Shown here in pieces: positions 16,667 through 26,097 of a stretch of 64,000 bases of DNA. The notes beneath the pieces are model-generated. The model was not told where the DNA came from. It worked only from the letters and a program-made list of their open reading frames with translations, and did no database searches. The stretch comes from Capsulimonas corticalis (GTDB taxonomy: Bacteria; Armatimonadota; Armatimonadia; Armatimonadales; Capsulimonadaceae): contig NZ_AP025739.1 in assembly GCF_003574315.2 (NCBI RefSeq), positions 4,402,001 to 4,466,000 of the forward strand, given 5' to 3'. The translations under genes and the position numbers were made by a program. Numbering within the stretch: the first letter of the stretch is position 1; the number at the start of each line of letters is the position of its first letter.

Positions 16667-17860
16667 CTAAGGAACACGCCTCTTCTTCCACATCGCCGTC
16701 TGCGCTTCGGCGAGCACTTGTGGGTTGAGGATATATCCGAAGCCCGCCCGCTCCAGCCGGTGAACGAGCTCATGACGTGTTGTTTGCAGCGCCTCGGCGG
16801 CGGCGTCCAGTTGCCATTCGTGCGCCGAGAGCTGGCTGAGCAGATAGGCGCGGCGGGTCTGGGCGCCGGAGAGACGGAATGTTTTGAGATATTCCAGCAT
16901 GCCGTCGTCTCGGACAATCGCCTCGCCGATATGATTCTCGATTTTAGGATCGAGCGTCGTGATGAATCGCTGCAAGGCGAAGGGACCGGCCTGGTAGACC
17001 GGCTTGGAGATCGTCGTGCGGCCGATCAGGTCAGAGGCCATGAAGCCATGGAACTTTCCCCAGTCGTCGCGGACGCGCGTGATTTCCGCACGCAGGCTCG
17101 CCAGATCGGTGACCTTCTCGTCGTGGACGGAGATGTCCAGCGGGATCGCGGTATTCCAGAGCAGGGCGTACTGATAGAGCAGTTCGCCGTAGAAATCGAG
17201 CAGCAGCGTTTCGTGCAGCGCGCGGTAGTCGTCGGGGTGGGAGACGACGAAGGCCGACGCCATTTCGTCGGCGACGAACACCAGCATGCCGACCTGATCT
17301 TCATGGATCTCGAAGACGCGCAGGGCTTCTTCGAGACCGTCGATGCGCCGTCCGGACACCGCCAGCTCCCAGCGCGATTCGAAGCCGTTGTTCCGAAACT
17401 TGCGCGAGAACTCCTGCCACGCGATCTCCGGCCCGGAGAAGAATAGCGACAGAAAGCCCTCCATCGCCAGATGCAGCGGCAGAAAGCGCAGCCGGTTCGC
17501 CGCTTCCCGCTTCGCCATGCGCGACAGCACGCGCAGGCTCATGCCACAGCCGCGAAGCTGTTCTCCGTCTTTGGCGATCTGTGCGCCGTTCGACACGACC
17601 GGAGAACCGTCCTCGCTCCAGTCGATCACCATGCCGTGTGGCGCATAGCTGGAGACGTAGTGTGGATCCCGTCCGAACATCTCTCCCTTTGTGGCGACGA
17701 TCGTTAAGTCATCCCGGTAATTGCGGCGCGCGAGTCGCAGGTCGCCCGGCGCGCCTCGACGCAGCAGTGGGACAAGACGCATGGCGCCGCGAACCTGCGA
17801 GGGAGCGATTTCGAGCCCGTCCAGCGAAATATGCGAGATTGGCGTGGCGTGGATCGTCAT
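16667..17860 (-). CDS. ARPP-2-like domain protein of unknown function
   Basis: 397 residues, no signal peptide or membrane helix. The pattern (SHISLDGLEIAPSQVRGAMRLVPLL at the start and a central SFVVSHPDDYRALHETLL-like region reading AFVVSHPDDYRALHETLL) resembles the ARPP-2 family; this assignment is from memory of the family and moderate. The last 60 residues form a helix-turn-helix-like segment (AAEALQTTRHELVHRLERAGFGYIL). The ATG at 17860 overlaps the stop of the upstream vWA gene by 4 bp (ATGA), so the two are translationally coupled and their products probably work together. Biochemical function unknown. Confidence 0.7.
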   Translation of the reverse strand: MTIHATPISHISLDGLEIAPSQVRGAMRLVPLLRRGAPGDLRLARRNYRDDLTIVATKGEMFGRDPHYVSSYAPHGMVIDWSEDGSPVVSNGAQIAKDGEQLRGCGMSLRVLSRMAKREAANRLRFLPLHLAMEGFLSLFFSGPEIAWQEFSRKFRNNGFESRWELAVSGRRIDGLEEALRVFEIHEDQVGMLVFVADEMASAFVVSHPDDYRALHETLLLDFYGELLYQYALLWNTAIPLDISVHDEKVTDLASLRAEITRVRDDWGKFHGFMASDLIGRTTISKPVYQAGPFALQRFITTLDPKIENHIGEAIVRDDGMLEYLKTFRLSGAQTRRAYLLSQLSAHEWQLDAAAEALQTTRHELVHRLERAGFGYILNPQVLAEAQTAMWKKRRVP

Positions 17861-19338
17861 TCGCCTTCCTCGCTTTCTTTGGCTTCCTCTGGAAGAGGCG
17901 CTGCCCCCAGGAAGTGCGCTGCGCGAGCCGCCAAATACGTTTCCAGCTCCGACAACGGCGCGGCGCCGCTGGCGAAGCGGGCAAACCCGAGCATGGTCGG
18001 CAGATCCTCCGCGTCACGCAGACCGACAGTCGGGACATACGGGCTGAGTTCCTGCAATGTGAAATCGTCGGAATGAAACACCGGGTTGCAGTGAACGATC
18101 GTCGTCTTGCCCAGCGGATCCAGGCGCTCCCGGAACACGCGCAGCGCTTCGGCGGCGCCGCGCGGCGGATCGTTTTCAAATCCGTCGGATACAATCACCA
18201 CAAGATCCGGCTTCCATTCCAGCGCGTCCAGTAAAGGCGTTGCGAGATCCGTCTGCCCGCGCGGAGCCGCCATGACCGGCGAGTCCATCGGCGATGTCCA
18301 GAAGGAGCGATACGTCCCGCTCGCCTCCTGAAGCAGTGAATGCGCCGCGATGGCGACGGCCAGCGGACGACGCCGTTTTTCCTGTGATCCCGACGTGGAG
18401 TAGCTGTTATCCAGAACCGCCGCCACTCGTCCAAGCCGCATGGGGGCGGCGCGCAGCGTGTGCCGCGCGGAGGCCCGCAGCGCTTCCTCAAGCTGTTCCT
18501 GCTTTTGCCTGCGCTCGGCCCATGGCATGGAGAGAATAAAGAGGGCCAGACGCGTGAGCGGCAGACGTTCCCAATCCAGCATCGGCGCGTCCAAGCCCGC
18601 GCGTTCGGACGTGCGCTGCAATCGCAGCTTCTCGTGGGATGTCATCTGCGGCGCAATCCGTTCGAGAAAAACTTCGCGCTTCAATCCCTTGCGCGCCGCC
18701 AGTCCTTCGGCAATCGAGTAGGGAAGCTTGTAAATGGCTTCGGCGCTGTACTGCGCCTGCCGGAACGTCTCCAGCAGAGGCGTCTGAAACGTGCGTTTTG
18801 ACCGATCTTCGAAGAGGAATACGCCCGTCTCACCCGGCAGGACCAAGTGCGCGTGGATCGCGGACGCCAGAAATTGCCGGCGATATTTCACCACATGAAA
18901 CGACGGATCCGAGCGAGACGCCAGATAATCGCGGGCGACGGCGCGGGAACGGCGGTTGTTGACGCCGCGTTTGCGCAGCGACTCCAGCACGTTCCACGCC
19001 CGGTGCGGCGGCAGCGCGCGCAGCGCGGCGCCGATCAAGGCGTTTTCCTCCGCGCGGTGTTCCGGCGGGGTATCGCGTCCCGTGGCGAGCAGATTCACAA
19101 GGATCTGCGCCTGACCGAAATGGTTGACGCCCGCCGCGAGCGTCCTCGCATACAGCAATCGGTAATTTCCCAGAATGTAATGGTGCAGAAAGTCGATAGA
19201 GACGCGCTGATCGAAGCCGCTGCTATAAAACTCGCGCTGCCCGGTGCAGGCGAAGCAGGCGTTGATGAACATCACCAGATCTTCACGAGCGACCTGATTG
19301 GCGCGAGCCTGCGGAATGTTGAGAGAGGTGACGGTCAT
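17857..19338 (-). CDS. vWA-domain protein with helical N-terminal region
   Basis: 493 residues. Residues 1-295 are predicted helical, with a repeat-like arrangement recalling TROVE/Ro or other HEAT-like vWA partners. Residues 300-470 are a von Willebrand A domain with an intact MIDAS: Asp310-x-Ser312-x-Ser314 in VLDNSYSTSG, Thr363 in GQTDLATPLL and Asp385 in IVSDGFEND. vWA proteins of this kind often act as metal-dependent adaptors for AAA+ ATPases, as in chelatases and MoxR systems. Here a Ycf46-like AAA+ gene lies in the divergent operon, so such a pairing is plausible but unproven. A minus-strand TATAAT lies at 19455-19450, giving a leader of about 105 nt. Confidence 0.8.
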   Translation of the reverse strand: MTVTSLNIPQARANQVAREDLVMFINACFACTGQREFYSSGFDQRVSIDFLHHYILGNYRLLYARTLAAGVNHFGQAQILVNLLATGRDTPPEHRAEENALIGAALRALPPHRAWNVLESLRKRGVNNRRSRAVARDYLASRSDPSFHVVKYRRQFLASAIHAHLVLPGETGVFLFEDRSKRTFQTPLLETFRQAQYSAEAIYKLPYSIAEGLAARKGLKREVFLERIAPQMTSHEKLRLQRTSERAGLDAPMLDWERLPLTRLALFILSMPWAERRQKQEQLEEALRASARHTLRAAPMRLGRVAAVLDNSYSTSGSQEKRRRPLAVAIAAHSLLQEASGTYRSFWTSPMDSPVMAAPRGQTDLATPLLDALEWKPDLVVIVSDGFENDPPRGAAEALRVFRERLDPLGKTTIVHCNPVFHSDDFTLQELSPYVPTVGLRDAEDLPTMLGFARFASGAAPLSELETYLAARAAHFLGAAPLPEEAKESEEGE

Positions 19339-19449
19339 GACGGTAAACTTCGAGAAGCTGCCCGGGAAATGACGGAGCGATTAACTGGGTTCAGTTCCAT
19401 AAACGGAGCACGGAAATCGCGCCAAAGTCCCACAGGCAGCTTGGCTCGA

Positions 19450-19455
19450 ATTATA
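19450..19455 (-). promoter_or_regulatory. -10 box of the vWA/ARPP-2-like operon
   Basis: Minus-strand TATAAT in the divergent region between the vWA and radical SAM genes; a T-rich tract lies just downstream on the plus strand. No convincing -35 box. Confidence 0.4.
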
Positions 19456-19526
19456 CCTTTTTTTGTTCTCCGCGAAAATTATTGAATCGCCGCGAAACTT
19501 CCGCCGTGTTTCCCCGTTTAACACCC

Positions 19527-20642
19527 ATGACGAACTCGAAACCCGAGGGCGATGACGGGATCTTCGCAAACGGCTTGGACCATTATTTAGCCGTTCGTGA
19601 CGGCCGGCGGGCGCCGCGCTTCGTGGAGTCTCGGCTTGCGGGGCTGCTGGACCGCAAGATCCAGATGGCGGACCGCATGCTGGACGCCTGCGATCTTTGC
19701 CCGCATCATTGTCTTGTGAACCGAAACGCGGGGGAGAGAGGTTTTTGCGGGGTAACGGACCGGACGGCGGTGCACTGGGAGGGCGTGCTGCACGGAGAGG
19801 AGATCGAGCTGGGCGCTTCGCACGAGGTCTTTTTTTCCGGATGCACGATGCGCTGCGCGTTTTGCTTCGCGCACGCTCATATCACACGGCCCATGTCGGG
19901 GCTGCCGATGGCGCCGGAGGAACTGGCGAATTGCGTGGACAAGCGGCGCGCGCAGGGCGCGTCGAACGTAAATTTGGTGGGCGGCGAACCGATCGTTCAT
20001 CTCGCGAATATTTTGAAGATGCTTCGGGACGTGACGCGGCCGTCGCCGGTGGTTTGGAACTCCAATCTGTATGCGACCGAGGACACAATGGCGCTGCTGG
20101 AGGGGGTGGTGGACCTCTACCTGGGCGACATTCACTTCGGCAATGAAGAGTGCGCGGCGAAGTTGGGGCGCATTCCGGATTATCTGCCGTCGGTGCATGC
20201 GGCGTTTCAAACGGCGGCGCGATCCGGGGCGAGCGTGATTATCCGGCATCTGGTGATGCCAGGGCATCTGGAGTGCTGCGCGCGGCCGGCGATGGAGTGG
20301 GCGGCGCGCGAACTGCCGGACACGCCGTTTCATTTGATGTTTCAATATCTGCCCGAGTTTCGGACGCTGGGCGATCCGGTGATGGGCAGAGCGCTGTCGC
20401 TTCCGGAGATCGCGCGCGCCGAGGAGCTGGCGCGGGAAATTGGCGTTCGTCGATACCAAGAAGCCGAGTTCGCCTCGCCTCCGATGCCGGAGACCGAGGG
20501 AGGCGTCGGCGAGACGGTGGATATTCTGATTCATGAAGATGGTCGTGTCAGCTTCACAAGGCTGACAGGGGATTTGCTGCCGGTGGCGGCGGCGCTGAAC
20601 GCCGGCGATGAGCGGGTGTCGATGCGGATGGGGAGATCGTAA
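19527..20642 (+). CDS. Radical SAM protein, PflX/COG1313-like
   Basis: 371 residues from ATG 19527 (the frame opens at TTG 19482). The radical SAM cluster motif is CTMRCAFC (Cys106, Cys110, Cys113). Upstream is a second cysteine set CDLCPHHC...GFC (Cys55, 58, 62, 74), as in PflX-type activating-enzyme homologues. NLVGGEPIVH is the GGEP-type SAM-binding strand. These enzymes use a 4Fe-4S cluster to cleave SAM and abstract hydrogen; glycyl-radical activation or peptide modification are known roles of relatives. Neither start has a Shine-Dalgarno. It is followed after 5 bp by the AAA+ gene, so they share an operon. Substrate unknown. Confidence 0.85.
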   Translation: MTNSKPEGDDGIFANGLDHYLAVRDGRRAPRFVESRLAGLLDRKIQMADRMLDACDLCPHHCLVNRNAGERGFCGVTDRTAVHWEGVLHGEEIELGASHEVFFSGCTMRCAFCFAHAHITRPMSGLPMAPEELANCVDKRRAQGASNVNLVGGEPIVHLANILKMLRDVTRPSPVVWNSNLYATEDTMALLEGVVDLYLGDIHFGNEECAAKLGRIPDYLPSVHAAFQTAARSGASVIIRHLVMPGHLECCARPAMEWAARELPDTPFHLMFQYLPEFRTLGDPVMGRALSLPEIARAEELAREIGVRRYQEAEFASPPMPETEGGVGETVDILIHEDGRVSFTRLTGDLLPVAAALNAGDERVSMRMGRS

Positions 20643-20647
20643 CGCAA

Positions 20648-22240
20648 ATGGCGCAGAAGTCGATACAAGAGTTGGAAGTGCTGCTCCGGGCGCGCTATCC
20701 GGTGATCTATGTGGTGAGCTGGGAGGAAGGGCGCGTCGAGGAAGCGCTGGCGCAGATCGCGCGGCGGCGCGAGAAGAAGCTGTACCTGTGGTCGATCGCA
20801 CGCGGTCTTCAGCAGTACGGCTCGCCGGTTGAGGGCAAGCGGCGAGCCGATGAGCGGACAACGGATCCGCCGGTGGCGCTCGACCATGTTTTGGAGAGCA
20901 TGGAGAACGCTATCTATGTCTTCCGAGACCTGCACCAGTTCTTTAACAGTCCGGCGGTGACGCGGCGTATTCGGGAGCTGGCGAGTTATTTAAAGAACAG
21001 CTACAAGACGCTGGTGATTATCGGGCCGACGCTGCAAGTGCCGACCGAGCTGCAAAAAGACGTGACCGTGGTCGAGTTCGATCTGCCCGACCGCGAAGAA
21101 CTGAACTCACTGCTGGACCGTACGCTCTCGGAAGTCAACGAAAGCACCGGGCGGGAACTCAGCGTCGCGCCCGAAGCGCGGGATCGCATTCTGGGCGCCG
21201 CTTCCGGGCTGACGCTGAACGAAGCGGAGAATGTCTTTGCGAAGACACTCGTGATTTCGGGGCGATTGAGCGAGGAAGACCTGCCGATTATTCTTTCCGA
21301 GAAAGAGCAGACGATCCGGAAATCGGGTCTGCTGGAGTACTACCATGCGGATACGAACCTGGCGCAGATCGGCGGCATGGATGTCCTCAAAGATTGGCTG
21401 AGCAAACGCAGCGTCGCGTTTGACTCAGAAGCCGCTAAATTTGGTCTGCCCGCGCCCAAAGGCGTGCTTCTCATCGGCGTGCAGGGCTGCGGCAAGAGCT
21501 TGACGGCCAAGGCCATCGCGGGCGTTTGGGGACTGCCGCTGCTGCGCCTGGATGTGGGGCGTCTTTTTAACAGCCTCGTCGGCTCCAGTGAGGAAAACAT
21601 GCGCACCGCCATCCGGGTGGCGGAGTCCGTGGCGCCGGCGGTGCTATGGGTGGATGAAATCGAGAAGTCCATGGCCGGCAGCCAGAGCAGCGGATCGACG
21701 GATGGCGGCACTTCGGCGCGTGTTCTTTCCGGCTTTCTTACCTGGCTTCAGGAAAAAACCGCGCCGGTCTTCGTGGTGGCGACGGCGAACAGCATCGATC
21801 AATTGCCGCCGGAACTGCTGCGGCGAGGTCGTCTTGATGAGACCTTCTTTGTCGATCTGCCCGACGCCACCGAACGCCGGGAGATCTTTCAGATCCACTT
21901 GCAGAAGCGAGGGCGCGATTCGACATGCTTCGACGTCATCGCGCTCGCCGAAGCGGCCGAGGGATACAGCGGCGCCGAGATTGAGCAATGCATCATTGCG
22001 GGTCTTTTCGAGGCCTATTCGGCGAAGCGGCCATTATCGACGGAGATTTTGCTGCGCTGCACCCGCGATAGCGTGCCGCTGTCGCGAACAATGAAGGAGC
22101 CGATCGACCGGCTGCGCGAGTGGGCGGACGGCCGCGCCCGGCGCGCTTCGACGGGAGAGGCGCCGCGAATTCAGGCCCTGGTCTCCGGCGGGCGAAAGCT
22201 GGAGATGGATCACCTGGATCCGATCGAAAAGGAAGGATAA
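20648..22240 (+). CDS. AAA+ ATPase, Ycf46-like
   Basis: 530 residues. The N-terminal 230 residues (beginning SIQELEVLLRARYPVIYVVS, then WEEGRVEEAL) match the Ycf46 pattern of a degenerate first ATPase-like domain. The C-terminal AAA+ module has Walker A GVQGCGKS (about 277-284), Walker B VLWVDEIEKS (about 331-340), sensor ATANSIDQLPPELLRRGRLDE with the arginine finger, and a C-terminal lid. Ycf46 is a plastid/cyanobacterial protein; non-photosynthetic homologues often sit beside DUF1257 and DUF2997 genes, as here. It should use ATP to remodel a protein target. Short spacings to the radical SAM gene (5 bp) and the DUF1257 gene (4 bp) show an operon. Confidence 0.88.
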   Translation: MAQKSIQELEVLLRARYPVIYVVSWEEGRVEEALAQIARRREKKLYLWSIARGLQQYGSPVEGKRRADERTTDPPVALDHVLESMENAIYVFRDLHQFFNSPAVTRRIRELASYLKNSYKTLVIIGPTLQVPTELQKDVTVVEFDLPDREELNSLLDRTLSEVNESTGRELSVAPEARDRILGAASGLTLNEAENVFAKTLVISGRLSEEDLPIILSEKEQTIRKSGLLEYYHADTNLAQIGGMDVLKDWLSKRSVAFDSEAAKFGLPAPKGVLLIGVQGCGKSLTAKAIAGVWGLPLLRLDVGRLFNSLVGSSEENMRTAIRVAESVAPAVLWVDEIEKSMAGSQSSGSTDGGTSARVLSGFLTWLQEKTAPVFVVATANSIDQLPPELLRRGRLDETFFVDLPDATERREIFQIHLQKRGRDSTCFDVIALAEAAEGYSGAEIEQCIIAGLFEAYSAKRPLSTEILLRCTRDSVPLSRTMKEPIDRLREWADGRARRASTGEAPRIQALVSGGRKLEMDHLDPIEKEG

Positions 22241-22244
22241 CGCC

Positions 22245-22748
22245 ATGTCAGTCGTCTTTGTCGTCGCGCCCATTGTCGCGGGCAGCTGGCCCGTGATCTC
22301 CGCCGCCATCCTCGCCGCCGGCGCGGCGATGGGGTACCACGCCGCCGCGAACGCCAACGAACAGCTTCGCCGTCAGGAAGAAGCCGGCTGTGGAAATCTC
22401 TTGTACAGCGAGGTGTCGCCCGTCCAGCGCTCCGTGAAGCTGGTCATGGACGACAGTGAGATCTTGATGGAGACGCTGATGCGCGGCGAATCGTTCGCCA
22501 TGGAGCGTGAAGGCTTGACCGCGACGTTCCGTGTGGATGGGCGCGGCCAGTGCACCGTGCACGTCAGCGGCGAAGGCCGCAGTGAGATGGAGCTGCAGGA
22601 GGCGGGATACTCGCTGATGGACCGCGTTCGCCAGCAATTTGCCTACTCCAAGGTGATGGCGGAGCTGGAGGAGCGCGGCTTCGATGTCACCCAGCAGGAA
22701 GTCCGGGCGGACCAATCGATTCGAATTCAAGTTCGCCGCTGGAATTGA
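22245..22748 (+). CDS. DUF1257 (Ycf35-like) protein with hydrophobic N-terminus
   Basis: 167 residues. The C-terminal 50 residues (YSLMDRVRQQFAYSKVMAEL, then a region ending IRIQVRRW) match the Ycf35/DUF1257 signature Y-x-(H/K)-x-x-x-E, followed by a D-x-S-I-R-x-x-x-x-RW end. The first 40 residues are hydrophobic and Ala/Gly-rich (VVFVVAPIVAGSWPVISAAI), possibly one membrane helix or a packed helix. Ycf35 family function is unknown; in cyanobacteria and plastids the gene travels with AAA ATPases. It begins 4 bp after the AAA+ stop. Confidence 0.8.
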   Translation: MSVVFVVAPIVAGSWPVISAAILAAGAAMGYHAAANANEQLRRQEEAGCGNLLYSEVSPVQRSVKLVMDDSEILMETLMRGESFAMEREGLTATFRVDGRGQCTVHVSGEGRSEMELQEAGYSLMDRVRQQFAYSKVMAELEERGFDVTQQEVRADQSIRIQVRRWN

Positions 22749-22780
22749 AGGCCAGCAACGTTTTATCCTTCTGAGAATTG

Positions 22781-22789
22781 TGTTATGAT
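22781..22789 (+). promoter_or_regulatory. Internal extended -10 promoter before the TPR gene
   Basis: TGT-TATGAT in the 75-bp gap after the DUF1257 gene, 34 nt before ATG 22824. It could let the second half of the locus (TPR, DUF2997, S26-like, PilT-like) be expressed separately. Confidence 0.4.
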
Positions 22790-22823
22790 AATGACATTCT
22801 CTTGAAGGAGTCGCGAAAAAGTT

Positions 22824-23606
22824 ATGGGACGATTTTCGAAACTCGACTTTCAGCCGGAGCCGCCCGCCGCCATCGCCACGCCGGATGACCCATGGCCGAA
22901 TATGGACGAGCACGGCTGCATGAAGCTGGGCGAAAGCCAGTTTCAAACCGGCCTTTACGAGCCGGCGCTGACGTCTTATTCGCGCGCCTTGCGGTTTAAC
23001 AAAGGTCTGGTCGAGGCGTGGATCGGGCAGATCCGCTGCTTGATCTGTTTGGGCGAGTACCCCGAGGCCGTCACCTGGAGCGATCGCGCTTTGGAGAAGT
23101 TCTTCAAGTCGCCGGACCTGCTGGCGTGCAAGGGGTTGGCGCTGGTGCGCGGGGGCAAGCCGGCGCAGGGACTGGAGTATCTGGACGGGGCCGTGGAGCT
23201 GCGCGCGCCGTCGGCGTGGGTGTGGCAGGCTCGCGGCGAAAGCTTGCTGCTGACCGGCCAGGATGTCGTCAACGCGCAGCGCTGCTTTCTGAAGGCTCAG
23301 GAGCTCAGTCCACAGGATTGGCACCTGGAGATGCGCATCGGGATGTCGTATAACGCGGTCCGCAAATTCGCGCCGGCGAGGCCGCATTTGCTGACGGCGG
23401 CCCGGGGAGCGCCGAGCAATCCGCTGGCGCTCTATCAGCTCGGACTGATGCATGAAGGGTTGGGAGAGTTTTCACTGGCGCAGGGCTGCTTTCAAAGGGC
23501 TCAAGCGGCGCGGCGCGGTTACGTAGAGGCGGAGCGGGCGGCGGAGCGTGTGAGCGGAAACAATGTGTTCGCTCATCTCTGGCGTGGCCTGCGTCTGAGA
23601 AAATAG
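22824..23606 (+). CDS. TPR-repeat protein
   Basis: 260 residues, soluble. About five tetratricopeptide repeats span residues 40-240, for example ALTSYSRALRFNKGLVEAWI and QLGLMHEGLGEFSLAQGCF. TPR arrays scaffold protein-protein contacts. GAAGGAG (22804-22810) lies 13 nt before ATG 22824. The next gene starts 12 bp after its stop. Within this locus it may bridge the AAA+ machine to its targets, which is inference. Confidence 0.85.
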   Translation: MGRFSKLDFQPEPPAAIATPDDPWPNMDEHGCMKLGESQFQTGLYEPALTSYSRALRFNKGLVEAWIGQIRCLICLGEYPEAVTWSDRALEKFFKSPDLLACKGLALVRGGKPAQGLEYLDGAVELRAPSAWVWQARGESLLLTGQDVVNAQRCFLKAQELSPQDWHLEMRIGMSYNAVRKFAPARPHLLTAARGAPSNPLALYQLGLMHEGLGEFSLAQGCFQRAQAARRGYVEAERAAERVSGNNVFAHLWRGLRLRK

Positions 23607-23618
23607 CCGGGAGGAAAT

Positions 23619-23825
23619 ATGGCGAAGCAGGAAGTGCTGGAAATTGAGATCGATGCGGCGGGCAAGGTTCAGGTGCATGTGAAGGGCGCCAACGGCAAAC
23701 GCTGCACGGATTACGTGAAGATCTTTGAGACGCTGCTGGGCCGTGTCGAGAAGCAGGAGCTGACGGCGGAATACTATCAGAACGAAGTCACCGGCCACAC
23801 CCATGTCCATCACCGCCGGGATTAG
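23619..23825 (+). CDS. DUF2997 small protein
   Basis: 68 residues. The pattern EVLEIEIDAAGKVQVHVKGA, then NGKRCTDYVK, and a final EYYQNE-H-x-H-x-H-H tail fits DUF2997: beta-hairpin, conserved G-x-x-C and E-Y-Y. A His-rich end (HTHVHHRRD) could bind metal. DUF2997 genes recur next to DUF1257 and AAA ATPase genes, which supports the locus as a conserved module. GGGAGGAAAT precedes the ATG. Function unknown. Confidence 0.82.
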   Translation: MAKQEVLEIEIDAAGKVQVHVKGANGKRCTDYVKIFETLLGRVEKQELTAEYYQNEVTGHTHVHHRRD

Positions 23826-23834
23826 GACGCCGCG

Positions 23835-24926
23835 ATGAAGTGCGCGCAGTGCGGATACTATAACCTGCCGGGCGCCGCCGTTTGCGGCCGCTGCAAATCC
23901 AGCTTGACCGCGGATTCCGGAGCGCCCGTCGCCCCGCCGCCCAAGCCCGTGACGCCCGCCGCCGATTATTACCCGCCGCGCGCGCGCGACCGGTCTCTGA
24001 CGGACAATGTTCGGCTTCATGTCCGGCCTCCAGAAGCGCTCGCCACGCGCGTACGCTCGCTGCCGCGCCCCAGCATGCATCTGCTTCGAGCCGCCGGCGG
24101 CTCGTCCAGGCTGTCCATACAGCCTACTCTGTCGCAAAGCGACATGCTTCTGATTTGTTTCGCTCCCTTACCGGGATGTGTCCAGTGGATCCAGAAGAGG
24201 CGACGGGCGGCGATCGCGTTCTTCGGCGCGTTTTTCACGCTGTGTCTTGGCGCCATTGCGACGATCCACTCCGATGCCTCCACGGTCTTTATCTGGCTGA
24301 TCGCCCTGGTCGTCTTGGCGTCGATCGTCGACGCCTGCTGGCGGGCGGCGATCGTGAACTCAACCGCCTCGCCGGAGTTTCAGCGCCTGCGCGCGGGGAT
24401 GCTGGCGTTTCAAAGCTTTTGCGCGCTGGGCCTGAGTATCACGTCGGTCTTTATTTTTCTGGCGCAGTACTTTCCGATTTATGAGATGCGGACGGATTTG
24501 GCCGCGCCGACGCTGCTGAACGGCGACGGAATTATCGTGCAGTCCTGGTCCGATCCTCTGCACAACGCCCGCCGGGGCGATGTGATCATGGTCATTATGG
24601 ACAATTACTATCCGGTGACGGAACGCCTCATCGGACTTCCGGGAGACAGGGTGGAGTACGCGAATGGCGGTCTCTGGGTCAACGGGCGTCCGCTGCGGAC
24701 GCCGGAGTTGCCGATCGCCTTTCAGCCCGCGTCCAATCCCTTTGCAGTCGCGGTTCCGAAGGGAGAGTTTTTCATTTGGCGGGCAATGGCCAGGCCGTAT
24801 ACGGAGGAGCGCGGGGGCGATCCGATGCAGACCACGCAGTCGTATCTGCTGGTTTCTCCCGAGGACGTGCGCGGCAAAGTGATTGCGGTTTACACCCCGC
24901 CGGCGCGTCGCCGCTGGCTTCGGTAA
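23835..24926 (+). CDS. Zinc-ribbon membrane protein with degenerate S26 signal-peptidase domain
   Basis: 363 residues. A zinc ribbon (Cys3, Cys6, Cys17, Cys20) is followed by a proline-rich linker (to about 100), membrane segments around 105-118, 125-145, 150-170 and 190-212, then an S26-like domain. That domain keeps PTLLNGDGIIV and RLIGLPGDRV with GGLWVNGRPL. Aligned to LepB, the nucleophile Ser position is Leu222 and the general-base Lys position is Glu263, so it should not cleave signal peptides. It may instead bind peptides or act as a membrane scaffold. It begins 9 bp after DUF2997 and is followed by the PilT-like gene. Confidence 0.8.
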   Translation: MKCAQCGYYNLPGAAVCGRCKSSLTADSGAPVAPPPKPVTPAADYYPPRARDRSLTDNVRLHVRPPEALATRVRSLPRPSMHLLRAAGGSSRLSIQPTLSQSDMLLICFAPLPGCVQWIQKRRRAAIAFFGAFFTLCLGAIATIHSDASTVFIWLIALVVLASIVDACWRAAIVNSTASPEFQRLRAGMLAFQSFCALGLSITSVFIFLAQYFPIYEMRTDLAAPTLLNGDGIIVQSWSDPLHNARRGDVIMVIMDNYYPVTERLIGLPGDRVEYANGGLWVNGRPLRTPELPIAFQPASNPFAVAVPKGEFFIWRAMARPYTEERGGDPMQTTQSYLLVSPEDVRGKVIAVYTPPARRRWLR

Positions 24927-24957
24927 TTTTTGAGACTCGGTGAGCAGGAGGTAGATT

Positions 24958-26097
24958 TTGGACACGCCTTTATCGTTTGCGCACAACGGCCGTATGACCG
25001 GGCTGGACCTGTCGTCACAGACCAATCACTATGCGCGGCTTCTGGCGGCTTTGCGGCGCGCCACCCAGCGGCGCGCGTCCGACGTGCATCTGGTCGTCGG
25101 CCTCCCGCCGATGTTCCGGATCGATGGAGAATTGGTGGCGGACAGCGATACGTCCCTGGGGCGCGAGGATGTGCGCTCACTGGTCTATTCGCTGCTCAGC
25201 GAAGGGCAGCGCGAAGAGTTCGAGCGTGACTGGCAGCTCTGCGTCTCGATCTTCCTGCCGGATATGGGACATTTTCGCGTGACCGTGTACTTCCACATGG
25301 GGAATGTGGAGGCGTCCATCCGGGTCTGCCCCCTGAGCCTGCGCACGCCGCAGGAGCTGGGCCTGCCGGAGATCATGCACAAGCTGGTCGAGAAGCGCAG
25401 CGGCTTGATCTTGATCACCGGACCGACCGGTAGCGGAAAGACGACGACGTTCAACTGCATGATCGATATGATCAACCGGCAGCGGCGCTGCAAGATCATC
25501 ACGGTCGAGGATCCGGTCGAGTTCGTGCATGAGAATCGTTTGAGTTTGATCGTGCAGCAGCAGGTTCATTCCGATACGCGCTCATTCAGCAAGGCGCTGG
25601 TGCATATTCTGCGTCAGGATCCCGACGTAATCGGGGTGGGGGAGATGCGCGATCTGGAGACGATCTCCACCGCGCTGACCGCCGCCGAAACGGGACATCT
25701 GGTGATCGCGACGCTGCATACGCCCGACGCGGTGCAGACGGTGGACCGGATCGTGGACGCCTTCCCGGGCGACACGCAGGCGCAGATCCAGACTCAGCTC
25801 GCGGCGTGTTTGGTCGCTGTCGTCGCGCAGCAGCTCCTGCCGCGCGTGGACGCCGACGGCCGAAAGCTCGCTACGGAAGTGCTGATCAACAACGCCGCCG
25901 TCCGAAGCCAGATCCGCGAACGCAAGTCCAACATGCTCCGCAGCACGATGCAGACCAGCCGCAAGGAAGGCATGCAGCTCATGGAGCGCTCGCTGCTGGA
26001 CCTCTACCAGAGCGGCGTCATCACCTACGACACCGCGCTTGCGCACGCGCATTCGCCCGAGATCATTCAGCAGTTGATGGCGCCCGAAAAGAAGTAG
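24958..26097 (+). CDS. PilT-like type IV pilus retraction-family ATPase
   Basis: 379 residues from TTG 24958, fixed by AGGAGG (24946-24951) 6 nt upstream. The N-terminal PAS-like domain has RRASDVHLVVGLPPMFRIDG. The RecA-like core has Walker A GPTGSGKTTT, VEDPVEFVH, Walker B region DPDVIGVGEMRDLET and the His box GHLVIATLHTPDAV. The C-terminal AVRSQIRERK matches the AIRNLIRE helix of PilT. Such hexameric ATPases power pilus retraction at the inner membrane. Its place at the end of the Ycf46/DUF1257 locus is unusual: no pil genes are adjacent. Confidence 0.88.
   Translation: MDTPLSFAHNGRMTGLDLSSQTNHYARLLAALRRATQRRASDVHLVVGLPPMFRIDGELVADSDTSLGREDVRSLVYSLLSEGQREEFERDWQLCVSIFLPDMGHFRVTVYFHMGNVEASIRVCPLSLRTPQELGLPEIMHKLVEKRSGLILITGPTGSGKTTTFNCMIDMINRQRRCKIITVEDPVEFVHENRLSLIVQQQVHSDTRSFSKALVHILRQDPDVIGVGEMRDLETISTALTAAETGHLVIATLHTPDAVQTVDRIVDAFPGDTQAQIQTQLAACLVAVVAQQLLPRVDADGRKLATEVLINNAAVRSQIRERKSNMLRSTMQTSRKEGMQLMERSLLDLYQSGVITYDTALAHAHSPEIIQQLMAPEKK

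Follow-up and report, generated by a model that had tools for sequence, protein, structure and literature searches.

The window analyzed here is a stretch of 64,000 nucleotides from Capsulimonas corticalis (contig NZ_AP025739.1, positions 4,402,001 to 4,466,000; host genome, 7.6 Mb), and the genes in question surround an AAA+ ATPase of the Ycf46 type. A sequence-only reading of the window had reported nine genes in this region and taken them for one system. An open reading frame (ORF) check confirmed nine of the nine reported ORFs, including their coordinates, overlap and gaps, and the family assignments hold in profile searches. Seven of these genes (19482-26097), encoding a radical SAM enzyme (rSAM), the AAA+ protein, a DUF1257 protein, a tetratricopeptide repeat (TPR) protein, a DUF2997 protein, a dead S26-like protein and a PilT ATPase, form a recurrent operon that is apparently undescribed. 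The features of the locus are as follows.

19482-20642, plus strand: rSAM, activase-like, PflX/PflA type (Radical_SAM, 2.4e-12)
20648-22240, plus strand: Ycf46-type AAA+ protein (AAA, 5.2e-28), 5-bp gap after rSAM
22190-22207, plus strand: C-terminal tail GRKLEM of the AAA+ protein, residues 515-520, followed by ten more residues
22245-22748, plus strand: DUF1257 (Ycf35) protein with an extra hydrophobic segment at the N-terminus (PF06868, 1.8e-7), 4-bp gap
22824-23606, plus strand: TPR protein, candidate adaptor (TPR models, 1.5e-13), 75-bp gap
22830-22850, plus strand: N-terminal tag RFSKLDF of the TPR protein, a variant of RFxxLE by motif comparison across operons
23619-23825, plus strand: DUF2997 protein, 68 amino acids (PF11211, 1.4e-17), 12-bp gap
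23835-24926, plus strand: S26-like membrane protein (Peptidase_S26, 2.2e-14), 9-bp gap
24958-26097, plus strand: PilT/PilU-family ATPase (TIGR01420, 417 bits; cut-off, 319), 31-bp gap
17857-19338, minus strand: vWA-like protein with a MIDAS-type motif, 4-bp overlap with the ARPP-2 gene; not an operon member
16667-17860, minus strand: ARPP-2 protein (PF22549, 1.6e-106); operon neighbor, not a member

Complete or almost complete copies of the operon occur in six families of Armatimonadota and, beyond the phylum, in CSSED10-310, Riflebacteria and Phycisphaerales. The five families other than that of the window are represented by L018, with all seven genes on one strand; L017/L030, with seven genes and the rSAM interrupted by a contig end; L148, with six genes visible up to a contig end; L149, with six genes, no rSAM beside the operon and the S26 part missing; and L015, where the gene set reaches a contig end. 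Outside the phylum, seven genes are found in L053 (CSSED10-310), six in L033 (Riflebacteria, no rSAM) and six in L032 (Phycisphaerales), where a long TPR-labeled ORF overlapping the S26 gene is uncertain. L031 (Verrucomicrobia) has the order AAA+-TPR-PilT, and DUF2997 was found in 9 of 61 relatives. Since the seven plus-strand genes stand together in unrelated genomes, their arrangement is not due to chance. It is not the AAA+/DUF1257/DUF2997 trio alone, which the sequence-only reading had named as the result that would undo a larger system, but all seven genes that recur across phyla. The conserved operon proposed around this trio in a nonphotosynthetic lineage stands, with the rSAM, TPR, dead S26-like and PilT genes included.

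The two minus-strand genes behave differently. No Pfam vWA model fires on the vWA-like protein, and the call rests on the MIDAS-type motif DNSYS ... TD ... SDG, which is conserved in four homologues (alignment A2). ARPP-2 is present in 4 of 151 genomes of Armatimonadota. In the other three (L026, L027 and L028) it adjoins a vWA gene, no operon gene lies near the pair, and the genomes are without DUF2997. The two genes were seen as an overlapping or near-overlapping pair in these four genomes, the window genome included. When neighborhoods were compared, vWA and ARPP-2 were absent from every other operon copy. Within the phylum the operon was found in six genomes, and only the window genome, the starting point of this analysis, has both. 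Because the pair is found without the operon and the operon without the pair, the seven-gene operon is supported and the nine-gene system is not; the divergent genes are an independent two-gene unit (16667-19338). The divergent adjacency and short intergenic region in the window genome are what speak for one system of nine genes, which, given the separate distributions, we regard as extremely improbable.

The operon proteins were then compared with their families. The rSAM carries a CxxxCxxC motif (19842-19865) and a four-cysteine N-terminal cluster (approximately 19689-19748), and PFLA/NrdG-type models match it below cut-off; the enzyme recurs in L018, L017, L148, L053 and L032. Full-length alignment places the AAA+ protein in the Ycf46-type family, and a search against solved structures found Cdc48/p97 as the nearest relatives of its AAA+ domain. 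By sequence, its second domain is intact and Cdc48-like, and its N-terminal region reads as a degenerate AAA domain. The DUF1257 protein scores 31.8 bits for PF06868 (cut-off, 22.2) through its C-terminal 40 residues only, and its hydrophobic segment spans residues 4-22. Its C-terminal domain was modeled with a mean predicted local distance difference test (pLDDT) score of 81; a fold search of the model gave no match at an E value of ≤0.001, and a sequence search against solved structures gave nothing convincing. The DUF2997 protein scores 63.8 bits for PF11211, above the cut-off, with a G/G/G/C pattern in which G15, G23, G26 and C29 are invariant among 47 sequences; its model (pLDDT, 62) was too poor for a fold search.

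The S26-like protein consists of an N-terminal zinc ribbon, three hydrophobic segments and a signal-peptidase-like domain. Compared with solved signal peptidases, both the serine of SMxPTL and the lysine before RxxGLPGD are replaced, which bears out its earlier description as a dead S26 protein and leads us to reject an active signal peptidase I. Its homologues keep the zinc ribbon and hydrophobic segments, and the S26 part varies or is lost. The product of the last gene, previously labeled PilT-like, does belong to the PilT family, but that label was too cautious, since the score is that of a true PilT-family ATPase; an internal ATG at 24991 fits the start of the homologues better than 24958. 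The host genome contains six TIGR01420 matches above cut-off, the operon copy included. In other operons the TPR gene adjoins DUF1257/DUF2997 or AAA+.

In a tree of AAA+ proteins, the window copy falls in a PilT-operon clade of seven rows (Shimodaira-Hasegawa-like approximate likelihood ratio test, 98) drawn from this phylum, Verrucomicrobia and Phycisphaerales. The L033 and L053 proteins lie outside this clade on long branches. A second AAA+ copy of the window genome, at 3720306, is separate in the tree and pairs with the same genus.

Genomes were scanned with the AAA+ alignment and the layouts of 80 loci were read, which showed that the AAA+/DUF1257/DUF2997 core extends to Cyanobacteria, Actinomycetota and Bacillota. 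AAA+ with DUF1257, DUF2997 and rSAM was found in Gastranaerophilales, Micromonosporaceae, a planctomycete and Bacillota metagenome-assembled genomes. The rSAM at these loci is of a shorter, NrdG-like type that differs from the operon enzyme, so that the core is seen with two kinds of activase-like enzyme. The AAA+ gene of Myxococcota and Chloroflexota mostly lacks DUF1257 beside it. Separately, L083 (11634-12893) and similar Gastranaerophilales loci encode DUF1257-like proteins of about 420 amino acids with two or three profile stretches, suggestive of a repeated domain.

All 24 cyanobacterial genomes tested contain the AAA+ protein, most in two or three copies, which fall into classes lying beside DUF1257, in the order AAA+-DUF1257-DUF2997, or with neither neighbor. 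The DUF1257 protein beside a cyanobacterial AAA+ begins MSHFSTL (Pfam, 1.6e-23). A DUF2997-DUF1257 pair is present in 29 of 30 loci read, usually adjoined by a gene for a small 4Fe-4S ferredoxin (Pfam Fer4_13 in the one tested). These loci match the published cyanobacterial cluster DUF2997-ycf35-fed7, or cluster g (PMC4284462). Fed7 is needed for tolerance of oxidative stress, metals and iron limitation and binds a DnaJ-like protein (PMC4284462), and the operon of slr0374 (Ycf46) reacts to shortage of iron, sulfur or nitrogen as well as to salt, high light and oxidative stress (PMC7496141). Freshwater red algae have lost plastid ycf35 and ycf46, among other genes (PMC5940233). At the cyanobacterial loci (L186-L214 and L325-L327), we also observed two N-terminal EPELGG copies in the ferredoxins beside DUF2997-DUF1257, and two AVLGG copies in HEAT-repeat-like proteins near AAA+-DUF1257-DUF2997.

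Most of the AAA+ proteins that keep company with DUF1257 or DUF2997 share a C-terminal tail, [RK]x(0-2)-Phi-[DE]-Phi, in forms such as GRKLEL, GRALDV, GRTIDF and QRLEF. It ends 57 of 67 AAA+ proteins with such a neighbor and 0 of 64 without (Fisher value of 4e-27, which is overstated, since the sequences are related and the expression was loosened after inspection). The first, stricter expression gave 46/60 versus 4/73, the four coming from operon copies that lay on short stretches or next to a contig end; the final expression is looser and was applied with cyanobacterial loci added. The tail is present in the Gastranaerophilales/Micromonosporaceae clade, the PilT-operon clade, L034, L123 and the cyanobacterial class beside DUF1257. 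The AAA+ proteins of Myxococcota and Chloroflexota, the second copy in this phylum and the cyanobacterial class that lacks DUF1257 do not have it. For the proteins compared, this occurrence in separate AAA+ groups is a stronger argument than the Fisher value. Residues G515, R516, K517 and E519 of the AAA+ protein are invariant (alignment A1). Within these operons, helix-hairpin-helix membrane proteins and TPR proteins also end with this tail. The helix-hairpin-helix proteins of L076-L109, for example, end GRIIDL, GRVLDF and similar, the tail type of the AAA+ proteins of their own operons.

A second motif, RFxx[LI]E, lies at the N-termini of neighboring proteins. Among the collected loci, it starts 29 of 394 genes located within 5 kb and on the same strand as an AAA+ gene and 0 of 686 others; eight altered motifs scored 0 or 1 each in the same test. 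The 5-kb limit was chosen after a first, stricter test (gap of <400 bp; P = 1e-5). The P value is indicative and overstated, since many of the 29 genes are mutually homologous, their loci are related, and the test was refined after inspection. The proteins that start with the motif are unrelated (TPR, NHL, SNF2 helicase and zinc ribbon). RFxxLE is found in seven of nine operon TPR proteins; the other two are the window protein, with RFSKLDF (RFxxLD), and that of L017, with RIERLEL (RIxxLE). NHL-repeat proteins beside other AAA+ genes of the phylum begin MSDRFDFLEL, zinc-ribbon SNF2 helicases beside AAA+ in Caldilineaceae begin MTQERFEWLEIP, and zinc-ribbon membrane proteins beside AAA+ in Myxococcota have SRFLHLER at the N-terminus. 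Identity in the motif versus the next 20 residues was 0.60 versus 0.11 for the TPR set and 0.79 versus 0.21 for the NHL set. A literature search of partial coverage found no mention of the tail and tag strings and two papers that name DUF1257 together with DUF2997; neither terminal motif of the Ycf46-type AAA+ proteins and their neighbors appears to have been reported so far.

Similar strings were observed elsewhere in these genomes. An NHL-repeat protein of the window genome (L235, 1489-2667; C1:5118927) begins MSGNRFDFLEF far from both AAA+ copies, and its counterparts in relatives adjoin AAA+. A J-like protein ends GRFDKLEL or a close variant at the stop in the window genome (L242, 994-1524; C1 near 6882399) and in L247-L249, L252, L255, L256, L258-L263, L265 and L272; its gene directly follows PspA in five genomes (the window genome, L252, L255, L256 and L258). 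A zinc-ribbon protein ends GRFNHLEL or DRFRHLEL in the window genome (L239, 1090-1524; C1 near 5591887) and L254, and squalene-hopene cyclases end RFANLEV in L266-L271 (family f9 genomes).

The sequence-only reading had proposed an ATP-driven, membrane-linked machine, and we judge this the likely kind of system. From the observed gene order and motifs we infer binding, substrate and function as follows. The Cdc48-like AAA+ ring would unfold or pull apart a protein target. If RFxxLE were a docking tag for AAA+, the TPR protein would be the bound adaptor in this operon, and if the AAA+ tail docked on DUF1257/DUF2997, the ring would be tethered at the membrane. The rSAM, or Fed7 in cyanobacteria, may serve as a redox or modification arm, the rSAM perhaps acting on DUF2997 with its invariant glycines and cysteine, and PilT could provide this membrane assembly with a further motor. 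The literature on the slr0374 operon (PMC7496141) and on Fed7 (PMC4284462) makes iron, redox or membrane stress a likely setting. That the seven genes encode one ATP-driven protein-remodeling machine, built on the AAA+/DUF1257/DUF2997 core and separate from vWA/ARPP-2, is the interpretation we favor, tentatively, at somewhat below an even chance. Several observations weigh against it. The remodeling role leaves PilT unexplained, and the rSAM is missing beside the operon in L149 and L033. The window itself fits both motifs imperfectly: its TPR tag has LD for LE, and its GRKLEM is not terminal and was scored as a miss. The P values for both motifs are inflated, as noted above, and genome-wide counts of RFxxLE exceed those of a reversed-pattern control only modestly (55 versus 42 and 19 versus 7), so the case for the tag rests on the conserved families and their closeness to AAA+. 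A bolder proposal is a peptide code at protein ends, read by AAA+ proteins of the Ycf46 type, with RFxxLE[LIF] at either end of a partner and the Phi-[DE]-Phi tail docking DUF1257/DUF2997. This would link Fe-S/rSAM chemistry to membrane-stress factors, such as the J-like protein beside PspA, and unite Ycf46 and Ycf35 in a single function, that of a tag-directed remodelase; we consider this possible and on balance doubtful.

Three other explanations were weighed against a remodeling machine. The operon could serve a type IV pilus or a secretion machine in an accessory role, with PilT as the business end and the AAA+, rSAM, TPR and dead S26-like proteins maturing or regulating a pilus-like filament. 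A full PilT-family ATPase in nearly all operon copies across phyla, accompanied by the S26-like membrane protein, is consistent with such a role. We nevertheless find it fairly unlikely: no pilin, PilB or PilC was seen among the labeled genes of the operon and its flanks (beyond these, the genome search covered PilT alone), the core is far more often without PilT, and the host genome has five further PilT genes above cut-off. A peptide- or protein-modification system, in which the rSAM modifies DUF2997 and the AAA+ and DUF1257 proteins only present or unfold it, would account for the two different types of activase-like rSAM that accompany the core in separate lineages and for a small DUF2997 with invariant glycines and cysteine. 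Those residues may be structural, however; cyanobacteria have a ferredoxin instead of the rSAM, and several AAA+ copies have no rSAM nearby, all of which makes this explanation unlikely.

An anti-phage or other conflict system is very unlikely. The scattered occurrence, both in this phylum and among phyla, would suit one, and predicted conflict systems include ARPP and vWA proteins (PMC9503650), but the ARPP-2/vWA pair lies outside the operon, which contains no nuclease, protease or toxin, and the core is near universal in the sampled cyanobacteria. A PADLOC search returned weak, superfamily-level matches only and no convincing defense model, and a known defense system was therefore set aside.

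Among described systems, the MoxR AAA+/vWA machines (NorQD and RavA-ViaA) and the vWA ternary conflict systems resemble the window superficially, in having an AAA+ gene near a vWA gene. The window AAA+ protein is classical and Cdc48-like, not MoxR, and the vWA gene lies outside the operon and occurs separately, and a MoxR-vWA machine was rejected. In Cdc48/p97 with its adaptors, the AAA+ domains are the nearest solved relatives, and recruitment of partners through short peptides is likewise proposed here. The window protein differs in being bacterial, with an apparently degenerate first AAA domain, no Cdc48 N-domain found and other motifs. The cyanobacterial stress operon slr0373-slr0374(Ycf46)-slr0376 has an AAA+ protein of the same family and, unlike the window operon, no rSAM, TPR, S26 or PilT gene. 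By gene order and size, the cyanobacterial loci in which AAA+ has a DUF1257 gene as its neighbor and QRLEF or QRMEF as its C-terminus probably correspond to slr0373-slr0376. The DUF2997-ycf35-fed7 cluster (PMC4284462), like the window, has a tight DUF2997/DUF1257 pair with an Fe-S protein; there the ferredoxin replaces the rSAM, and AAA+ is encoded elsewhere. Cyanobacteria and red-algal plastids retain Ycf46 and Ycf35, for which no mechanism is known. In the window, a compact operon of a heterotroph joins an Fe-S enzyme and DUF2997 to Ycf46 and Ycf35. Its parts and partners carry end-tags that suggest how the proposed machine might assemble and choose targets; these name candidate partners, which makes the function of Ycf46 and Ycf35 directly testable, and suggest further ones in the same genomes, the NHL-repeat protein and the J-like protein beside PspA.

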